Shown: positions 9,154 to 21,000 of the stretch, piece after piece
Position numbering within the stretch: position 1 is the first letter of the stretch
Layout: each line of letters begins with the position of its first letter
Virus record (IMG/VR): IMGVR_UViG_3300017767_000157
Location: 1-22,289 of that record
Source: a virus
Direction: 5' to 3' (one strand)
DNA: 22,289 nt
Position numbers and translations under genes: made by a program
Notes under the pieces: model-generated
The model's input: the letters and a program-made list of their open reading frames with translations, nothing else
Told to the model about the DNA's origin: nothing
Databases searched by the model: none

Positions 9154-12100
9154 ATGGCTGAAATTAAACACGTTTTTCAATCAGGTCGTATGAATAAAGA
9201 CCTTGACGAAAGGTTATTACCTAATGGTGAATATAGAGACGCTATGAACATAGAAGTCTCTGGTTCTGATGGTAGTAACGTAGGGTCTGTTCAAAACATT
9301 AGAGGTAATAGAAAAAGAAGTTTAGTTGGTATAGCCGGTGGTAAATGTATTGGTAGTATTGCTGATACAGAAAATGAAAAAATATATTGGTTTATATGTG
9401 GTAACAATATAGACGCTATTGCTGAATATGATCAAGTAGCAAATAATACTAAACCCGTATTAGTTGATGCTGGTTCTACACCAGCTGATCAATTTTTGTT
9501 TTTTGATAAAACAAAACTTATAACAGGTATAAACTTAATAGATGGTTTATTGTTTTGGACAGACGATAATAGTGAACCTAAAGTTATTAATATACAAAGA
9601 TCAAAAGACGGTTCTACAAATTTTGCAACATCAACATTATATACAACTCCGCAAGGTGTTGATTACAATGTAGCAGAAGAAGATATTACTGTTGTTAAAA
9701 AAGGACCAACAATCGCGCCAACAATAACTATGGCCAACACTAAAAGGGTAACAGCTGGTGGTAGCACAGGTATTATATCAACTAGTGGTAGTGCTAACTT
9801 TTACGATTCTTCTAATAGTGAGCCAATGGAACCTGGAGAAAATGTTACTGTAACAATAACAGGTCCTAATCCGACATATCAAGCTGGTGATTTTCTTATA
9901 TTTACAAATGGTGAAGATCCAGATATAAATGGTTATGATCCAGATTTTACTATTAGAGCTCAAGTACTCACATACTCAGGTGGTAGTACTATGACAATTA
10001 ACATAACTAGTATACCAGAACTAGTACCAACATCATCTGTTGTTTGGACTATAGAGTTAGAACAAGAAGATCCTATGTTTGAGGATAAGTTTATAAGATT
10101 TGCTCATAGATATAAGTTTAAAGATGGTGAATATTCAACAATAGGCCCTTTTTCCGAGTTAGCCTTCTTACCAAAAGAGTACGAATACAATCCTAAAAAA
10201 GGTTACAACTTAGCAATGGAAAGCGATATGAGATATTTAAAAATATCTGGATTTGCAAGTAGCGTACCTAAAGGTGTTATAGAAATAGACGTATTATATA
10301 AAGACGATTCAAATAACAATATATATACTGTAAAAACATTTAAACACAACGATCCTGAATATGTAGCTAATAATTTTGAAATAGAGTCTGAAATAATATA
10401 CAAGACAATAGAATCAAACCAATTATTAAGACCTTTTGATAGTGTTCCGTTAAAAGCTAAATCACAAGAGTTAATAGCTAATAGGATAGTTTATGGTAAC
10501 TATGTACATAACTTTGACATGAATGATGTTAGTGGTGAAGATGTTAAACCAAATTTTGATGTTAATGTACAACCTAGATCTGGTTTTTCACAAACAACAT
10601 TATACAAATCACCTGGTAAATCAATAAAAAGTCAAAGAACATATCAACTAGGCGTTGTATACAGAGACGAGTATGGTAGAGAAACACCTGTATTTACAGA
10701 TCCTACTGGTTCTAAATCAATAAGTAAAAATGCATCAAAAGCTTTTAATCAGTTTAAAGTAAAGATGAACCATGAGAAACCATTGTTTGCTAAATCATTT
10801 AAGTTTTTTATAAAGGAAACTTCTAATGAATATTACAACATGGCTATGGATCGTTGGTACGATGCAGAAGATGATAATATATGGTTAAGCTTTCCGTCCG
10901 CAGAAAGAAATAAGGTTGATGACGAAAGTTTTTTAATATTAAAAAAGAAACACGATAGTGATATATGTGTGTCAAATGAGGCTAAATATAAGGTAATTGC
11001 AATATCAAATGAAGCACCATTATATTTAAAACAAACAAAAACTTCACAAGGTAGAGCCACTATAGGTTCAAGCACAATTGGCCTTGGAGCTTCAAACTTT
11101 CCAGCTATAGATGGTAGTGTATTTAGAATTACAAAAACAGACTTTATAGATAACGCAGGTTTTTCAGATGATCCTAATGGTATAACTGGTAAATCAGGTT
11201 TAATGGTAAGGTTTTTAGCTGGTTCTGGTAAAAGTGACTTTTATAATATAACAAGTATAGCGTTTACAGCTGGCTCACCAGGCTTTTATGATATATCAAT
11301 AGAAGGTAAGTTTGGTACTGATATGTCTATAGTTGGTACACACAGTAGTCCAGGTGCTGGTCTAGCATTTGAAATATTTCAAGAAGAAGTAAAAAATAAA
11401 GCTGAATTTTCAGGTAGATTTTTTGTTAAGGTGTTTAGAGATCAATTCTTAACAAATGCAATATTACAACCAAATGAAGTAAGTTATAAAGTAGATTCAA
11501 CAGCTGGTGTAATGAGAAGGGATGGTAGTTGTAGTACAAGCAGCTCAGGACATTGGAAAGATGATATATTTGATAATAAATTTAGATGGGTTTTTGATAG
11601 ATGTAAAGAAGACGATCACTGGAACCCAGATCATGTTCATGGTAACTCAGCTTTATGGTACGGAAACATATCTGGTGTAAATAAACCACCTGGTGTTCGT
11701 ACTGGTAAAGATTATATAAGCATTTCTATATTAGGTACTAGAAATGAATTTACTGGTGAGTATGCACAGTATAATGCCTTTGCACAAAAAATTAAATCTG
11801 TAGGTACTAAGTTTAGATTTAGAAACGATAGTAGTAATGGTATAACAGGTGAGCCTGAAATATACACAATAACCGACTCGCTTGTTACAAATGTTTGTAA
11901 TTATAGCGGTGGAAGTGGTCACTGGGGATCAAACAAAAGAACTATATTTACTTTAAAATTAGATAAACCAATAGTTGATTTTCATCAAAATGATTATACC
12001 AATAGAGATCCTAATGATTTAGCTACTATAGAGGTTTTAACTGTTGACTTAGGTGAAAATACTTTTTCTACAGATAACCCAGCTATATGGGAAACTCAAC

Positions 12101-13395
12101 CTAAAGAAGCTATAGATGTAGATTTATATTATGAAGCTAGTAACGCAATACCAATAGCACAACATGCAAATGAGCATGAATTAGAATATACAAACTGTTA
12201 TAGCTTTGGTAATGGTGTAGAGTCAAATAGAATAAGAGATGATTTTAACGCGCCTAAAATTTCTAAAGGTGTTAAAGCCTCAACAGTTTTAGCTGAACAG
12301 TATAAACAAGAAAGAAAGAAAAATGGATTAATATTTTCTCAAATATATAATTCAACTTCTGGTATAAATAGAACTAATCAGTTTATTATAGCTGAAGCAA
12401 TAACAAAAGATTTAAACCCTGAGTATGGTAGCATACAAAAACTACATCAGAGAGATACTGATCTAGTTATTTTATGTGAAGATAAGATATTAAGAGTATT
12501 AGCTAATAAAGATGCTTTATTTAACGCTGACGGCAATGCTCAGATAACATCAAACCAAGCTGTTCTAGGTCAGACAGTACCCTATGTTGGTGATTATGGT
12601 ATAAGTAAAAATCCAGAGTCATTTGCAACATATGGTTTTAGAGCTTATTTTTCTGACAAAGCAAGAGGAGCTATATTGAGATTATCAAGAGATGGTTTAA
12701 CAGCTATATCAGATGCTGGCATGAAAGACTACTTTAATGATAAACTATCTGTATGTGACACCGTTGTTGGTAGTTACAATGATAATAAAGGCTGCTACAA
12801 CATAACGTTAAGCCATCTTTATATAAGAGGTGATGAAGATACATTAACTTACAAAGAGCAAGTAAAAGGTTGGCCAAGTAGAAAAAGCTATTTAATGGAA
12901 AATGGTATATCATTAAATAACATGTATTACACATTTAAAAATGGTGAAATATATTCCCATGATGCTCCTGAAAGAAATACTTTTTATGGCGCTTCTGGGT
13001 TCACACCTTCTTCATTAACATTAATATTAAATGACGCCCCAGGTAGTATTAAGAGTTTTAAAACATTAAACTACGAAGGAACAAGAAGTAGAATTGTTAA
13101 ATCAGTTTCAGCAAATGTAGATGAATCTCATTATGACTATGCTGATATAAAAGGTTGGTATTGTCCTTCAATAATAACAGATCAACAGAGTGGTAATGTT
13201 CCAAGTTTTATAGATAAAGAAAACAAGTGGTTTAATTATATAAAAGGAGATAAAACTACTTATGATAACTTAGATACAAAAGAGTTTAGCGTTCAAGGTA
13301 TCGGTAGACAGCACGGTAATGTTACTGGTGATGTAAGCGTACCTAATGTAACTATAAGAATTATAGAAAATAATGATGAAAATCCAGGATATTAA
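9154..13395 (+). CDS. Large tail nozzle / stabilization protein (gp10/gp12-like)
   Basis: This 1413 aa protein is the largest complete gene in the window. It opens with FQSGRMNKDLDERLLPNGEY, then RDAMNIEVS and VQNIRGN, a signature I recall from the tail 'stabilization' or nozzle proteins of crAss-like phages. These are functional counterparts of P22 gp10 and T7 gp12, which form the hexameric tube that extends the neck and carries fibres. A second conserved block lies at residues 315-337 (RFAHRYKFKDGEYSTIGPF). The body is beta-rich throughout, as expected for a beta-propeller nozzle. Residues about 185-305 look like an inserted Ig-like domain. A segment near residues 785-930 is rich in Cys, His and Trp (for example FDRCKEDDHWNPDHVHGN). 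No enzymatic motif is evident. The three-base gap upstream and four-base gap downstream place it in the tail operon. Confidence 0.75.
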   Translation: MAEIKHVFQSGRMNKDLDERLLPNGEYRDAMNIEVSGSDGSNVGSVQNIRGNRKRSLVGIAGGKCIGSIADTENEKIYWFICGNNIDAIAEYDQVANNTKPVLVDAGSTPADQFLFFDKTKLITGINLIDGLLFWTDDNSEPKVINIQRSKDGSTNFATSTLYTTPQGVDYNVAEEDITVVKKGPTIAPTITMANTKRVTAGGSTGIISTSGSANFYDSSNSEPMEPGENVTVTITGPNPTYQAGDFLIFTNGEDPDINGYDPDFTIRAQVLTYSGGSTMTINITSIPELVPTSSVVWTIELEQEDPMFEDKFIRFAHRYKFKDGEYSTIGPFSELAFLPKEYEYNPKKGYNLAMESDMRYLKISGFASSVPKGVIEIDVLYKDDSNNNIYTVKTFKHNDPEYVANNFEIESEIIYKTIESNQLLRPFDSVPLKAKSQELIANRIVYGNYVHNFDMNDVSGEDVKPNFDVNVQPRSGFSQTTLYKSPGKSIKSQRTYQLGVVYRDEYGRETPVFTDPTGSKSISKNASKAFNQFKVKMNHEKPLFAKSFKFFIKETSNEYYNMAMDRWYDAEDDNIWLSFPSAERNKVDDESFLILKKKHDSDICVSNEAKYKVIAISNEAPLYLKQTKTSQGRATIGSSTIGLGASNFPAIDGSVFRITKTDFIDNAGFSDDPNGITGKSGLMVRFLAGSGKSDFYNITSIAFTAGSPGFYDISIEGKFGTDMSIVGTHSSPGAGLAFEIFQEEVKNKAEFSGRFFVKVFRDQFLTNAILQPNEVSYKVDSTAGVMRRDGSCSTSSSGHWKDDIFDNKFRWVFDRCKEDDHWNPDHVHGNSALWYGNISGVNKPPGVRTGKDYISISILGTRNEFTGEYAQYNAFAQKIKSVGTKFRFRNDSSNGITGEPEIYTITDSLVTNVCNYSGGSGHWGSNKRTIFTLKLDKPIVDFHQNDYTNRDPNDLATIEVLTVDLGENTFSTDNPAIWETQPKEAIDVDLYYEASNAIPIAQHANEHELEYTNCYSFGNGVESNRIRDDFNAPKISKGVKASTVLAEQYKQERKKNGLIFSQIYNSTSGINRTNQFIIAEAITKDLNPEYGSIQKLHQRDTDLVILCEDKILRVLANKDALFNADGNAQITSNQAVLGQTVPYVGDYGISKNPESFATYGFRAYFSDKARGAILRLSRDGLTAISDAGMKDYFNDKLSVCDTVVGSYNDNKGCYNITLSHLYIRGDEDTLTYKEQVKGWPSRKSYLMENGISLNNMYYTFKNGEIYSHDAPERNTFYGASGFTPSSLTLILNDAPGSIKSFKTLNYEGTRSRIVKSVSANVDESHYDYADIKGWYCPSIITDQQSGNVPSFIDKENKWFNYIKGDKTTYDNLDTKEFSVQGIGRQHGNVTGDVSVPNVTIRIIENNDENPGY

Positions 13396-13398
13396 GAT

Positions 13399-15711
13399 AT
13401 GGCACTAAATAATTGTACAATAAATTCATCTTCAGTAAACGTAACCCAAGGTCAGGCTTTAGGATCTACGGCTAGCCAAGTGTTAACTATAACACCAAGC
13501 GTTGGTTATGTAGTTGCCGCGTCAGATTTCACAAATAATACTGGTAGTTTGTCTGGTTCGCCAATAGCGTCTATAACTTTTAAAGATGTAACTTCTGGTT
13601 TAGCAACAGCAATACCATACCACGACGACAATGTTGTTCAAGTTATTTGTGATCTTGATAATAGCTATGTTGCTAATGCTAGCATAGATTATATAATAGA
13701 TATTGATGGTGATGCGCTAGATAAAAAAGGTAGAGAGTATACAATTTCTGGAACTCATGATGCTGCTGTTTCTAATGCTACTCCAGCTAGTTATACTGGT
13801 CAAACGTATACTGGTAGTGGTGTAGAAGGTAGTATTGTTACTTTGTTTACAAAAACATTTACAGCAAGCACTAACTTTTGTTTTTTAGATGCAGCTTCTT
13901 TTCCATCAGCAACTATCACAACTGGTACAGCTAGTAATTATATAATAGAATACGAAGATACACATAATGGAACTTTTTTTAATAGACTAATTTCAAGAAA
14001 GTTTATAGTAAAATATAAGTTTCCAGCAGCTATGGTTAGTGGAGATAATATAGATTTTTCAGCACAAGCAAAAGGTATACCGTCTACGGACACAGAAAAT
14101 TCAGACGCTATAATTAGAAGTTTGGTTATGGATCAAACAGGTATAATTAAAAGTGGTGAAGAAAGAGTATTAAGTATATTTGGAACACCTACCGCTAACT
14201 TTGAACTAACTGTAACAAAAAACAGTGATAATAAAACTTATGATTTTGCTTCAGAAGAAGAAGATAAGTTTACAACAACAGCAACCAAGCTAGATAATGT
14301 TAACATAGGTAGTGATGGTAAGCATGAGGTTGTAATAGTTTTTCCAGCTACAGGGTTAAGTAGTGAGCAATATAAAATAAAAGTAACAGCTGAATCAGGA
14401 ACTTCAATTTCTAGTGTTATAACTAATTATAACAATGCTAATCCAAATATCACATTAACGCAACAGAATGATGTGACAATAACGTTAACAACAGTAAACG
14501 GAAGCAATATTTCAAGTAGAACTACATCCGCTATAACTGGTGGTTATGAGCAAGTTGGTATAGCAGATGCACCAGCGGCTAGTAAAGAATCTATAAGTTA
14601 CACGGTTGTATCTACCTCAAATATGTTTGTTGCTAGGCAACCTATTTTTCCAGATGATTTTAGCAACGTAGATGCTACAAGTAGTGAATTTTATTTATCA
14701 AAACCTATAGTAAGTGGTAGTGGTGGTAAAACATTAACTATAACCTCACCTATACTTAGAGTTTATGATTTTGGAACAGCAAATATAACATCTGCTTTAA
14801 ATTTAACTAACATATTAAGCGCAGCACCTACGACATCTAATTTCACCTCTACAGGTAACGAAGATACAACACAAAATATAACGTTAGCGTCTCATATATC
14901 AAACCCATCTGGTGGAACGTTAACATACTCAATAGTTGCTGATAATACAGGTTCTAACGGTACCTTAACATTAACAAGTGCAGCGAATGGTACTGTAACA
15001 TATGTGCCAGCTTCAAACAATAACACAAATGTTAGCTTTACATACAAGGTTAATAACGGTGTTCAAGATAGTAACACATCAACAGCGACTGTAAATGTAA
15101 CGGCTGTTGCTGATGCACCTACAAATATAATATTATCCGCTGTATCTATTGAAGAGGGTAATAGCATAGGTGATGCAGTTGGTTCAATGCAAGCTACAGA
15201 TGCTGATGGTTCTTCACATACATTTGCTTTAGTAACAGGTACTGGATCTACAAATAACAGTAGTTTTAGTATAACTGGAACATCTCTTAAAGCAGCTGAA
15301 GTGTTTGACTTTAGTGTTAAGAGCTCTTATAGTATTAGATTAAGAGCAACAGATCCTGATGGTGGTTATTTTGAAAAAGCATTTACAATATCTATTACAG
15401 AAACTTCTGTTAGTAGATTCCAAATGGATGTATTCAACGCTGCAGGTCAATACCAAATGACTCACTTTATAAATGGAACACAAACATGTAGTAGTGGTAA
15501 TTTAGCTGTAACCTGTATGAACTTCGGTAGTTTAACAAACAAATGGGTTAGATGGAGAGCTGGTTCAAACTCATGTGGCGGAACAGAATATGGTAGAGGA
15601 AAAATAATTGGTGGAGCAGCAAATGGAGCTCCTACAGCTATAGTTTCTGGTGATACTTACTATAATAGTATGGCTGATTCGCAAAATAGTAACAATGGAG
15701 TAACATGTTAA
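13399..15711 (+). CDS. Cadherin-like adhesin / probable tail fibre
   Basis: This 770 aa, Ser/Thr/Asn-rich, almost entirely beta protein is probably the receptor-binding adhesin. Residues 487-570 form a cadherin-like or Big_9-type repeat starting NEDTTQNI. Residues 571-668 form a cadherin-type repeat with DADG at 601-604, a stretch with FDFSVKSSYSIRLRATDPDGG, and the final strand ending ITE. These acidic turns resemble calcium-binding cadherin loops. The C-terminal domain (about 670-770) has four Cys at 697, 706, 726 and 770, including the last residue, together with Trp, Gly and Tyr; it may be the binding tip. The N-terminal part, with SQVLTITPSVGYVVAASDF, resembles stalk or attachment domains I recall in cyanophage and marine phage virion proteins. 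The gene directly follows the nozzle. No chaperone or peptidase motif was seen. Confidence 0.65.
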   Translation: MALNNCTINSSSVNVTQGQALGSTASQVLTITPSVGYVVAASDFTNNTGSLSGSPIASITFKDVTSGLATAIPYHDDNVVQVICDLDNSYVANASIDYIIDIDGDALDKKGREYTISGTHDAAVSNATPASYTGQTYTGSGVEGSIVTLFTKTFTASTNFCFLDAASFPSATITTGTASNYIIEYEDTHNGTFFNRLISRKFIVKYKFPAAMVSGDNIDFSAQAKGIPSTDTENSDAIIRSLVMDQTGIIKSGEERVLSIFGTPTANFELTVTKNSDNKTYDFASEEEDKFTTTATKLDNVNIGSDGKHEVVIVFPATGLSSEQYKIKVTAESGTSISSVITNYNNANPNITLTQQNDVTITLTTVNGSNISSRTTSAITGGYEQVGIADAPAASKESISYTVVSTSNMFVARQPIFPDDFSNVDATSSEFYLSKPIVSGSGGKTLTITSPILRVYDFGTANITSALNLTNILSAAPTTSNFTSTGNEDTTQNITLASHISNPSGGTLTYSIVADNTGSNGTLTLTSAANGTVTYVPASNNNTNVSFTYKVNNGVQDSNTSTATVNVTAVADAPTNIILSAVSIEEGNSIGDAVGSMQATDADGSSHTFALVTGTGSTNNSSFSITGTSLKAAEVFDFSVKSSYSIRLRATDPDGGYFEKAFTISITETSVSRFQMDVFNAAGQYQMTHFINGTQTCSSGNLAVTCMNFGSLTNKWVRWRAGSNSCGGTEYGRGKIIGGAANGAPTAIVSGDTYYNSMADSQNSNNGVTC

Positions 15712-15721
15712 ATAAATAAAT

Positions 15722-16081
15722 ATGCCTAGTATAACAATAACTTTTGAATATCCTATAAATGAATCTGTAAGCGTAAATGATACTGCTTATTATCTACCAA
15801 CAACTAGTGCTGGTGCACCAAACGCTCACGGTCCACAAACTGATATAGTTGAAATGGGTACAATAACAGCAATGGATAGAGTAAATAATACAATAACTTG
15901 TAATATTGGTACGTATGTAGCAAGACCAGTTAATGATAGTTTTATACTGTTCAGTAAAGATAATAGGGCAAACATGTCTAGTTTAGCAGGCTACTATGCT
16001 GAAGTTAAGATGGAAAACACAGACAACACTTCTGTTGAATTGTATTCTGTTGGTAGTGAAATAGTTGAAAGTAGCAAATAA
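15722..16081 (+). CDS. Small conserved virion protein of unknown function
   Basis: This 119 aa beta-rich protein lies between the adhesin and the ejection-protein genes. Residues about 75-119 contain FILFSKDNRANMSSLAGYYA and end EVKMENTDNTSVELYSVGSE. I recall this as a widespread motif in small virion proteins of marine phages, including cyanophages with contractile tails, so the family may cross morphotypes. There is no membrane segment or catalytic motif. The start is preceded by AAATAAATAAAT with no Shine-Dalgarno site. A tail, fibre-attachment or head-surface role is plausible; the sequence does not distinguish them. Confidence 0.55.
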   Translation: MPSITITFEYPINESVSVNDTAYYLPTTSAGAPNAHGPQTDIVEMGTITAMDRVNNTITCNIGTYVARPVNDSFILFSKDNRANMSSLAGYYAEVKMENTDNTSVELYSVGSEIVESSK

Positions 16082-18058: not shown

Positions 18059-21000
18059 ATGCCGGAAAAAAATATGATAGGAATTTTCCATGAAGGCGAG
18101 TACAAGCTGATAAAGGAAAAAGACCGAGGTAAATATGGTACTGCAGAAATACTAACAGGTGTAACTGACAAAGCTAGTTTATATAAATATCGAATAGATA
18201 AACAAGGTAAGCTAACTCAAGATGAGATAAAAGCTATAGAAACACAAGCAGATACTAAAATAACTAGAGACATAACAGAACAAAGAAAAATTTGGGATAG
18301 AGGTAATACTCCTAGAGTTGAAAGAGTTGTTGTTGGTCAAGAAGAGGTTTTTCCATGGGAAGATTCAATAGGAAAAGACGGTGATAGAGACAAAGCAAAA
18401 GGCACGTGGATTTATGAGGCCAAGAAAAAAGCTAGAGCTAAAAAAACAAAAGGTCTATTTGATACTATAGAAGATGAAGTACAACCATTTTTTTCGTTAG
18501 ATGGTAGTAATGATGTAGCTGTATTTTTAAGTAAGTATGGACCAGGTACTAAAGTACTAACACCTGTTATGGACGAAGAAGGTAATATAACAGGATATGA
18601 AAGACCTAAAACAGAGTATGAAAAATTAAGGTCTGAAATAAAAGCTAAATACGATGAAGACTATAAAGTTAAAGAAACTGAAATAGTAAATCACATATCA
18701 GGTATTAAGAATAGAAAAACACACATAGAAAACTTGCACGGTCAATTAACTGCGATCGAAAACACTCCGCAAGAACAAATCACACAAGATATAATATTTA
18801 AACACAAAGAGCTACTAGAAGAGTATAGAGGCAACACAGCCGCTTTTCAAGACGAGCTTGATATGTTAGATTCATTACAAGGTCAAGCCGAAGAAATAGC
18901 TGACCTAGGTGATTTATCAAAAAGATCTTACAACGAACTAGAAGTACCTATATTAAAAATACAAAAAACAGCATTAAACTTAGTTAGTGGTTTAAGTCAA
19001 GTTGGTGCTGAATTAACACCATACTCTATAATAAAAAGAAGTACTGGTTTAGATTTAGCAGATGATAGCCAAATAGAAATGATACCAGATGCTTTAAAAG
19101 TATTTGTAAGAGCTAAAACAGGTGTTTATTTAAATAAAGGTTTAGATAAGCTTTCAGACTACACAGCGGATGTTGCTGAAGAAATAGGTGGTCAAGCTAG
19201 AAAAAATATAGCTTTAGGTGAAATACGTGGAGAAACTAAAATGGAAACGCTAGGTAACTTTGGAGTTTTTATGGTAGATTTATTTGCTGAGCAATCTATA
19301 AATACAGCTGTTACATTATCTACTGGTGGTACTGGTTTAATGCTTGTTGCTGCTGGTGCTGCAGGTAATAAAATGTCAGAGCTTAATATGCGTATGGAAA
19401 ATGGTGAAGATATAAGCGCTTTAAATTATTACGCTGGTTCTATGGGGTTTGGTGTTGCAGAATATATAACTGAAAGAATTAGTTTAGGTCAAGCAAAAGG
19501 TATGTTAAAAGCTTTTGGTGGATTTGGTAAAAACAACTTTAAAAAAGCATATGCAAACGCTGCTGCAGGAAGTATGGAGCTTAGTAGAGAGTTACCAAGA
19601 TACACATTAAGACAAATGAACGTTGGTAAAGCCTTAACTAATTACGGTATACAGGTTAACAGTGAAGGTATGGCTGAGGCTGGTGCTAGTATAATTCAAA
19701 ACACTATAGGTAGATATATGCTAGATGAAGATGTTGACATATTTGATGGTGTTGGTGAAGCTTATATAACAGGTGCTTTAATGTCAGGTCTTGGGTTTCA
19801 AGTTCCAGTTGTAGCTAAAGATATGTATCAAAGTTTTACAACTGCTAAAAAGTGGAAAACTTTAAACTCTAATACACTTGAGGTTATTGAAATGCAAACT
19901 GAAATAGACAGATTAGAAAAGCTAAACAAATTAAACCCTGGTTCTCAAAAAGCTGCAATAATACAGCTACGAAAACAACAAGATGCTTTGTTAAGAATGA
20001 ACCTAGACACAAAGTACGAAACAGAAACAAGGGTTAACAATATGAGTAATCCTCAAAAGCGACAAGCTATAGAGTTCATGAGAGATGTAAGAAAGCTAAA
20101 AGGCGAAATAGACAACTTAAACGATAATAGTGATATGTCTATGAAGCAAAAATCAAAAGCTATAAACGAAAAGATTAATGAAATAAGCAACCTAGAATAT
20201 CAACATGAAGTACTTTTAAACAAAGCTCAAATGTTTAAAGATCAATACAGGACTAGTAAGTTGGTTATGAAAGACGCTGTGTTAACTGGTAAAAATATAA
20301 ATGTTGTAAAAGGTAGAGGTATTGACAACTTGTTAAAAGAATCAACTAAAAAAATAGAAGCAAACGAAAGTTTAACACCTGAGCAAAAAAATAATTTAAA
20401 AAGAAAAGTTGCGCAAGTTGTAGCAGATGTTAAAGCTGAAAATGCTGACGTTCATGGTTTTTCTATAAGTGAAGGTAATCAAAACTTTACTTTTCAAGAT
20501 TTAACTATGTCTGAAAGAGGTGGTGGTATGGGTAATGCTAGTGTATTTTCACATGAGCTTAGCCATCAAACATTGTTTAGAGCAATAGTAGAGCAAGGTG
20601 GTGATTTAATATCTATGTCTAATATGTTAGACAAATACTTAAGAGGTAGATATTCCGGTTTATTTGAAGCTGTTCAAGATGATCAAGCTTATAAAGACAT
20701 GAACGAGGCTAAGAGAGCTGAAGAGAAATTAGCTAGAGCTATAGACTTTATGAGAAAGTTTGATTTAAAAGCAGATCAAACTATGCTTAAAGGTGCTTTA
20801 GACTGGTGGCAAGGTACAACTAAAGATACAGATCAGTTTAATGAAATAAAAACTGGTAAAGATGTTTTAGACATGCTTCACAGCTTTGCTGGTAGTTTTG
20901 ACGCTGGTGAAATGTCTGGTGCTGCTGCTGCTGTAATAAGAGGTGAGGTTAAAATGGCTAAAGCTACTGCAGCTGTTCAAGAGATGCAAAAGAAAGACGG

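Follow-up and report, generated by a model that had tools for sequence, protein, structure and literature searches.

The window, meaning the whole stretch of DNA analysed here, is a virus record of 22,289 bases and covers some of the structural gene block of a crAss-like phage. This block encodes a portal protein (phrog_6547), virion proteins (phrog_13704, phrog_14543 and phrog_13977) and a muzzle, the tail-tip gate of crAss-like phages. The muzzle gene (9154..13395, plus strand) codes for 1413 aa and was identified by Pfam and PHROGs. Its product scores 41.2 bits against crAss_MUZ (cut-off 27) and 31.4 bits against crAss_MUZ_C (cut-off 27), the families being PF25731 and PF25729, and matches phrog_14478 at 8.5e-140. 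With both curated Pfam cut-offs exceeded, the sequence identifies this gene as a Crassvirus muzzle. The muzzle stop ends at 13395 and the ATG of the adhesin gene follows three bases on, at 13399. The adhesin gene (13399..15711, plus strand) runs from this ATG to a stop, encodes 770 aa and has homologues at the same position in relatives. It is followed on the plus strand by the gene of a 119-aa protein (15722..16081), a homologue of the domain at the C-terminus of the one-piece muzzles of cultured phages. At 13393-13401 the muzzle TAA and the adhesin ATG share one frame, one codon apart, and the junction is also in-frame in L009. Stop read-through giving a fusion in the window was considered and rejected; the frame differs in six relatives (L010, L011, L012, L014, L016 and L020), so the in-frame junction is not conserved.

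The adhesin is composed of four parts, all on the plus strand. The body (residues 1-470, 13399..14808) consists mostly of beta strands, perhaps in four beta-sandwich units, the borders of the four segments being the analyst's choice, and found no Pfam match. It is followed by a Big_9/cadherin-like module (residues 471-570, 14809..15108), a cadherin module (residues 571-667, 15109..15399) and a four-Cys tip (residues 668-770, 15400..15708), which was delimited by alignments. The cysteines of the protein are at 6, 84, 161, 697, 706, 726 and 770. The codons of the last four, with coordinates by arithmetic from residue position, are Cys697 at 15487..15489, Cys706 at 15514..15516, Cys726 at 15574..15576 and Cys770, the last residue, at 15706..15708, all on the plus strand. 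The ORF, the domain order and the positions of the last four cysteines had already been noted in an earlier sequence-only reading, and the ORF call, Pfam and the residue positions confirm them. In the body, Cys6 (window region 13414-13650) is retained in nine of the ten tip-bearing proteins (at position 7 in L011), and a second cysteine at 75-84 is present in seven of the ten, with which it could form a further disulfide.

Both modules in front of the tip, which had been described as two cadherin-like repeats, were recovered by sequence, but the first is better named Big_9/Cadherin_5. Pfam places Big_9 (PF17963) at 476-566 with 35.9 bits (cut-off 23.6), Cadherin_5 at 476-568 with 33.8 bits (cut-off 26.5) and Cadherin_4 with 30.3 bits (cut-off 25.1). 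The second module matches Cadherin (PF00028) at 582-656 (E 2.5e-6). The score is 26.0 bits when the full protein is scanned and 28.2 bits when the module is scanned by itself, slightly short of the 28.8 cut-off. PF00028 recognises each of the six cadherin modules scanned at E<=1, the best at 1.3e-7. The DADG and DPDGG turns ascribed to the repeats are present at 601 and 652, but both belong to the second module and none to the first. The residues D572, E586, D601, D603, D637 and D652 are invariant in the alignment of six cadherin modules and correspond to the calcium-ligand positions of cadherins (linker D, xEx, DxD, D of DRE, xDx). On the basis of these positions, calcium binding by the cadherin module is plausible. 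The calcium-dependent rigidity proposed earlier gains plausibility from the six invariant acidic positions, but the cadherin-to-tip linker is degenerate in the window, as judged by eye, and the glutamate of DRE is lost in the window and L009, which have DFS instead. Calcium may therefore act at the joint between Big_9 and cadherin modules only. Elsewhere, two viral proteins (L092 100-7434 and L096 1-3834) show five and three strong tandem cadherin-profile matches, respectively, without body or tip profile matches. An extra ORF with a Big_9 match lies between muzzle and adhesin in L007 (7995-9263); it contains an FDSSGSM stretch resembling a von Willebrand A metal-site motif.

The full-length adhesin was modelled with a mean pLDDT of 71.9 as a chain of mostly beta-strand units, in which the cadherin part was poor and the tip mixed. 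A model of the cadherin module and tip had a mean pLDDT of 61.8, with the tip blocks mostly at 71-88 and one at 47. Both models were made without the tip members L087, L091, L093 and L115. The Big_9 module reached block-mean pLDDT of 73-88. The cadherin folds expected from the earlier reading are present as modules by sequence, but residues 571-660 show no confident fold, with block-mean pLDDT below 60. In Foldseek, the full model found generic tandem beta-sandwich chains, the best being 9ijj from the sperm axoneme (6e-9), along with N-cadherin 3q2w (1.3e-7, TM about 0.2) and viral Ig-like proteins, while the cadherin-tip model found no match at E<=0.001. VIA-align of the latter model gave flagellar hook domains as best (Z up to 6.7) and 5.2 for the best cadherin chain; these rows span model residues 1-102, which is the cadherin part, and so hardly reach the tip.

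Relatives were collected from IMG/VR by scans with the adhesin (8 loci) and the muzzle (58 loci), some of these loci sharing a record, and later scans added L087, L091, L093 and L115. Full-length relatives in BLASTP are L009 (65%), L010 (55%), L016 and L020 (36-37%) and L014 (33%). L012 (34%) aligns to residues 2-667 and has a different end, as do L017 and L019 (27-30%). When profiles of seven modules were compared with the locus ORFs, a body was seen in many of them and Big_9 in most of the closer relatives; some had the cadherin module, and a smaller number the four-Cys tip. The body, Big9, Cad and tip profiles were built from at most 13 rows of alignment A3 and match those rows by construction. 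Neither the whole adhesin (E<=0.01) nor the body (E<=10) found a match in annotated phage records. In the near-complete relative G001, two long minus-strand ORFs (L099 12619-14682 and 15760-18120) are built nearly throughout from short T/S/N/F repeats (TFNTST-like); neither matches Pfam at E<=0.01, and they are perhaps fibrous shafts. The starts of two ORFs in L103 (8109-10658 and 11768-14008) resemble them. G001 also has a 504-aa fibre-like ORF (18600-20114, L099-L100, minus strand) with repeated ATELNxLDGVTAT-like units.

The window 119-aa protein alone matches the phi38:1 muzzle gp097 (8.3e-5) and phrog_18548 (7.2e-12). A profile of it was made from 30 distinct copies. A copy was chosen either for its size together with an ESSK-like ending or because phmmer matched it; the ending is therefore not an independent finding. 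In a set of 10 sequences this profile matched the muzzle C-termini of elemoA (1.5e-10), elemoF (5.7e-10), phi38:1 (6.3e-10) and Gundel_1 (4.9e-7), in all of which the domain lies within the same chain as the muzzle. Against crAss001 gp44 it gave nothing below E 0.3. The window adhesin gene is located between the two pieces of a split muzzle. Seventy loci were laid out, of which 24 lack the full locus and 46 were scored; some are copies of others, so the counts are of loci and not of independent events. In 33 of the 46, 12 of which supplied profile rows, one or more ORFs matching the body or Big9 profile separate the muzzle from the 119-aa gene. The 119-aa gene directly follows the muzzle in five (L043, L044, L047, L048 and L049). 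Four others (L060, L061, L063 and L065) lack an adhesin and carry the muzzle end on a short ORF, with a small-domain match in three of them. The last four are cultured phages with a one-piece muzzle and no adhesin there; they were examined out of 87 phage records with a matching muzzle. The adhesin is absent at the locus in these four cultured relatives, so this type of tail can do without it. In L047 and L048 an adhesin-like ORF comes after the 119-aa gene and not before it, which counts against the adhesin as a muzzle appendage. A quick tree of muzzles separated the cultured one-piece muzzles and L060 from the split muzzles (SH-aLRT 99) with a very long crAss001 branch, and on such a two-sided tree fission and fusion of the muzzle are indistinguishable.

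Adhesin and muzzle are naturally fused in some relatives. G015 has a single ORF of 2342 aa with an ATG start, comprising muzzle, adhesin and four-Cys tip, and a 119-aa-type gene comes next. This ORF matches the window muzzle over 1-1406 and the window adhesin over 147-762 (34%, 4e-73), and it carries the Big_9 and cadherin modules. The muzzle ORFs of L043, L044 and L049 (2519, 2591 and 2432 aa), which form one clade in the muzzle tree, possess 655-677 extra residues. These extensions match one another at 2e-63 or better and contain no four-Cys tip. Those of L043 and L049 match separate adhesins of other phages (L031 at 1.2e-11 and L034 at 1.1e-18, respectively), and that of L044 matches separate adhesins weakly, at best 0.016. 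On account of its locus between the muzzle and the 119-aa gene and of these natural fusions, the adhesin is probably an appendage of the muzzle, the G015 fusion being the strongest evidence among the sequences. The site next to the muzzle and the fusions also support the earlier identification of the gene product as an adhesin.

Big_9 and cadherin modules strung in a row are a generic adhesive design, and the protein might instead be a particle or surface adhesin which keeps phages near hosts without choosing the host cell. Gut-phage Ig-domain proteins that bind mucus and epithelia serve as a model, and modular Ig-like adhesins of gut phages are described as giving epithelial binding (PMC13370021). 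This explanation is unlikely, as the muzzle site better suits docking on a cell, going by the review in PMC10136315. Replacement of the tip, described below, would moreover act like a specificity switch.

Tail genes are often ordered by assembly, and adjacency to the muzzle might reflect operon order only, with the adhesin being a virion fibre on the tail collar like crAss001 gp22. That protein, a trimeric tail fibre, docks on collar hubs in the structure reported in PMC10172136. We consider a collar fibre rather improbable, given that muzzle and an adhesin form a single polypeptide in four relatives, in one of them with the same kind of tip, and that the body profiles, like those of Big9 and tip, found nothing below E 0.09 among 17 crAss001 proteins, gp21-gp26 included. 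The Cad profile matched crAss001 gp25 with E 0.0058 for the sequence and 0.19 for the best stretch.

Eleven distinct tips were found, in the window, L009, L010, L011, L014, L016, L020, L087, L091, L093 and G015/L115. The L014 tip protein has the same ORF length and cysteine positions in L015 and L025, and the L091 and L093 tips are nearly alike. All four cysteines are retained in 10 of the 11 distinct tips; the exception, L011, has five cysteines with the second of the four missing. On the basis of cysteine spacing the tips fall in two types. Type A (9, 17-20, 43-44) is represented by the window (9, 20, 44), L014, L091 and L093, and type B (12, 16, 44-48) by L009, L010, L016, L020, L087 and G015. 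The tip matches no known family in Pfam (best 0.068) or PHROGs (best 0.11), each with 7 members searched, finds no match among PDB sequences (best 0.85) and gives one chance match to annotated phage records (E 9). GTDB genome contigs, scanned twice by pattern, yielded no relative that could be confirmed. By these searches it is a domain without a match in any of the five collections.

The histories of tip and body/muzzle are incongruent. The muzzle tree contains the clades {window, L009, L010}, {L014, L016, L020} and {L087, L091, L093}, each of which has both tip types, and at least three changes of type are needed on it, as counted by hand. None of the three muzzle/body clades survives an AU test on the tip (p 1.2e-6, 1.7e-5 and 2.0e-4). 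For body, Big9 and muzzle, the tests likewise reject the grouping of window and L014, whether or not L091 and L093 are included. Type A tips group as a single clade (support 85/86, or 100/99 when the long-branched L011 is left out); window and L014 as the closest tip pair were not recovered and not rejected (p 0.21). The window and L009 share 90% identity in Big9 and 90% in the cadherin module and 31% in the tip. L010 and L020 are 86% identical in the cadherin module and 36% in the body. G015 and L016, whose contig names bear one sample number, share 79% in the tip (tip DNA 83%), 68% in Big9, 63% in the cadherin module, 45% in the muzzle, 34% in the body and 42% (48/114) in the 119-aa-type protein. 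The Big9 AU test conflicts for {L087, L091, L093} (p 0.0008) and not for {L014, L016, L020} (p 0.05-0.14); exchange therefore extends beyond the tip. Hypervariability of the terminal domain had been suggested for comparison among relatives; the tip is indeed strongly diverged, but the pattern is that of module exchange. A DGR reverse transcriptase (PF00078) was found in none of 15 records, most of them fragments and the window's included, with controls positive in 3 of 14 genomes. Hypervariation of the tip by a DGR thus found no support in these records.

The large divergence of the tips and the fragmentary state of most contigs would also be compatible with two old alleles sorted by loss of duplicates in place of exchange between lineages. 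This is quite improbable. A single tip match is present in each of the nine tip-bearing records (15 searched), among which L014, L015 and L025 seem to carry the same protein. The tips of G015 and L016 are also far closer than their muzzles, and those of window and L014 share 65% where the bodies share 35%.

The tip cysteines are clustered. Ten tips contain 41 cysteines in 1047 aa, compared with 31 in 4780 aa (0.65%) for ten bodies, 3 in 968 aa for ten Big_9 modules and 0 in 789 aa for eight cadherin modules, and the cluster is not due to chance. No tip has a CxxC, and a metal knuckle was rejected for want of a close cysteine pair. The second cysteine occurs at either of two spacings, 9 or 12 after the first, and the C-terminal residue is a cysteine in 10 of 11 distinct tips, L011 ending in Cys-Leu. 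These three features favor disulfides over metal, and the sequences suggest that the tip cysteines form disulfides. The earlier reading had considered disulfides unusual for a protein folded in a bacterial cytoplasm; this premise is weakened by the crAss001 virion structure, in which proteins of the tail hub, the ring and the portal vertex contain disulfides (PMC10172136). That four conserved cysteines in a cytoplasm-made protein bind a metal ion, as was argued there, is a very slim prospect in view of the missing CxxC, the shifting second cysteine, the terminal position of another and the crAss001 disulfides.

Taken together, the gene quite likely encodes a muzzle-borne adhesin with a Big_9 and cadherin spacer and an exchangeable four-Cys receptor-binding head. 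In the window's own virion the body residues would sit on the muzzle. Big_9 and the cadherin module, probably stiffened by calcium, would be the spacer. The receptor-binding head would be the C-terminal domain, which two disulfides made in the virion probably hold closed. The head would grip a surface receptor and docking would be passed on to the muzzle gate. Heads exchanged between phage lineages would alter binding, with a possible effect on host range. The copy number may be up to six if the arrangement is as in the crAss001 muzzle hexamer. As G001 has further fibre-like genes, the muzzle adhesin need not be the main receptor binder; adsorption could then proceed in two steps, fibres first and muzzle arms second. 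A wider proposal, to which we give slightly less than an even chance, is that in this large crAss-like clade known from metagenomes the muzzle, as DNA exit gate, is a modular receptor-binding platform. Its arm, separate or fused, would be placed between the core and the C-terminal domain, and perhaps six calcium-stiffened arms would bear disulfide-closed heads of a new family, swapped as a host-range switch. According to a review of the Crassvirales (PMC10136315), domains at the tip of the muzzle might be what docks on the host cell and causes the gate to open, the docking mechanisms being unknown. The muzzle-adhesin fusions are a concrete candidate link between receptor grip and gate opening. 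The small exchangeable head can be made and tested on its own, and the two tip types may serve as a marker for tracking possible host-range switching in phage communities.

Modular phage adhesins are already known in kind (PMC6949934, PMC12386605, PMC13370021, PMC10743442). Titles and abstract openings of open-licence PMC articles gave no adhesin in or beside a crass muzzle, no muzzle-adhesin fusion and no such tip. The crAss001 muzzle, gp44, is of the same family as the window neighbour, which in four relatives is fused to the adhesin. Unlike in the window, the next protein after gp44 in crAss001 is the cargo protein gp45, and no adhesin lies between the two. The muzzles of phi38:1 (Cellulophaga), elemoF and elemoA (Flavobacterium) and Gundel_1 (Tenacibaculum) are also of this family; their C-terminus is homologous to the window 119-aa protein, and they form one polypeptide without an adhesin between. 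Like the window adhesin, Tentaclins have an Ig-like chain and a terminal binding head; as described in PMC10743442, their head is an N-terminal, DGR-variable C-type lectin, whereas that of the window adhesin is C-terminal with four cysteines. The N-terminus of the window adhesin is the body, and Pfam at E<=0.05 gave no lectin family in the protein, which sets it apart from Tentaclins. Tandem beta-sandwich modules near structural genes are shared with the BACON-repeat proteins of crAssphage (PMC6949934), some of which have a poorly conserved C-terminus, and with the modular Ig adhesins of gut phages (PMC13370021). The window adhesin differs from both in its modules, with no BACON or PKD match in Pfam at E<=0.05, in its muzzle locus and in its cysteine tip. 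The DGR-varied tail fibres of zeta crAss-like phages (PMC12386605) are likewise crAss-like, with an Ig-like spacer in some and a variable C-terminal head. As reported there, that head is a C-type lectin changed by a DGR, whereas the window group varies its head by swaps of the whole domain.
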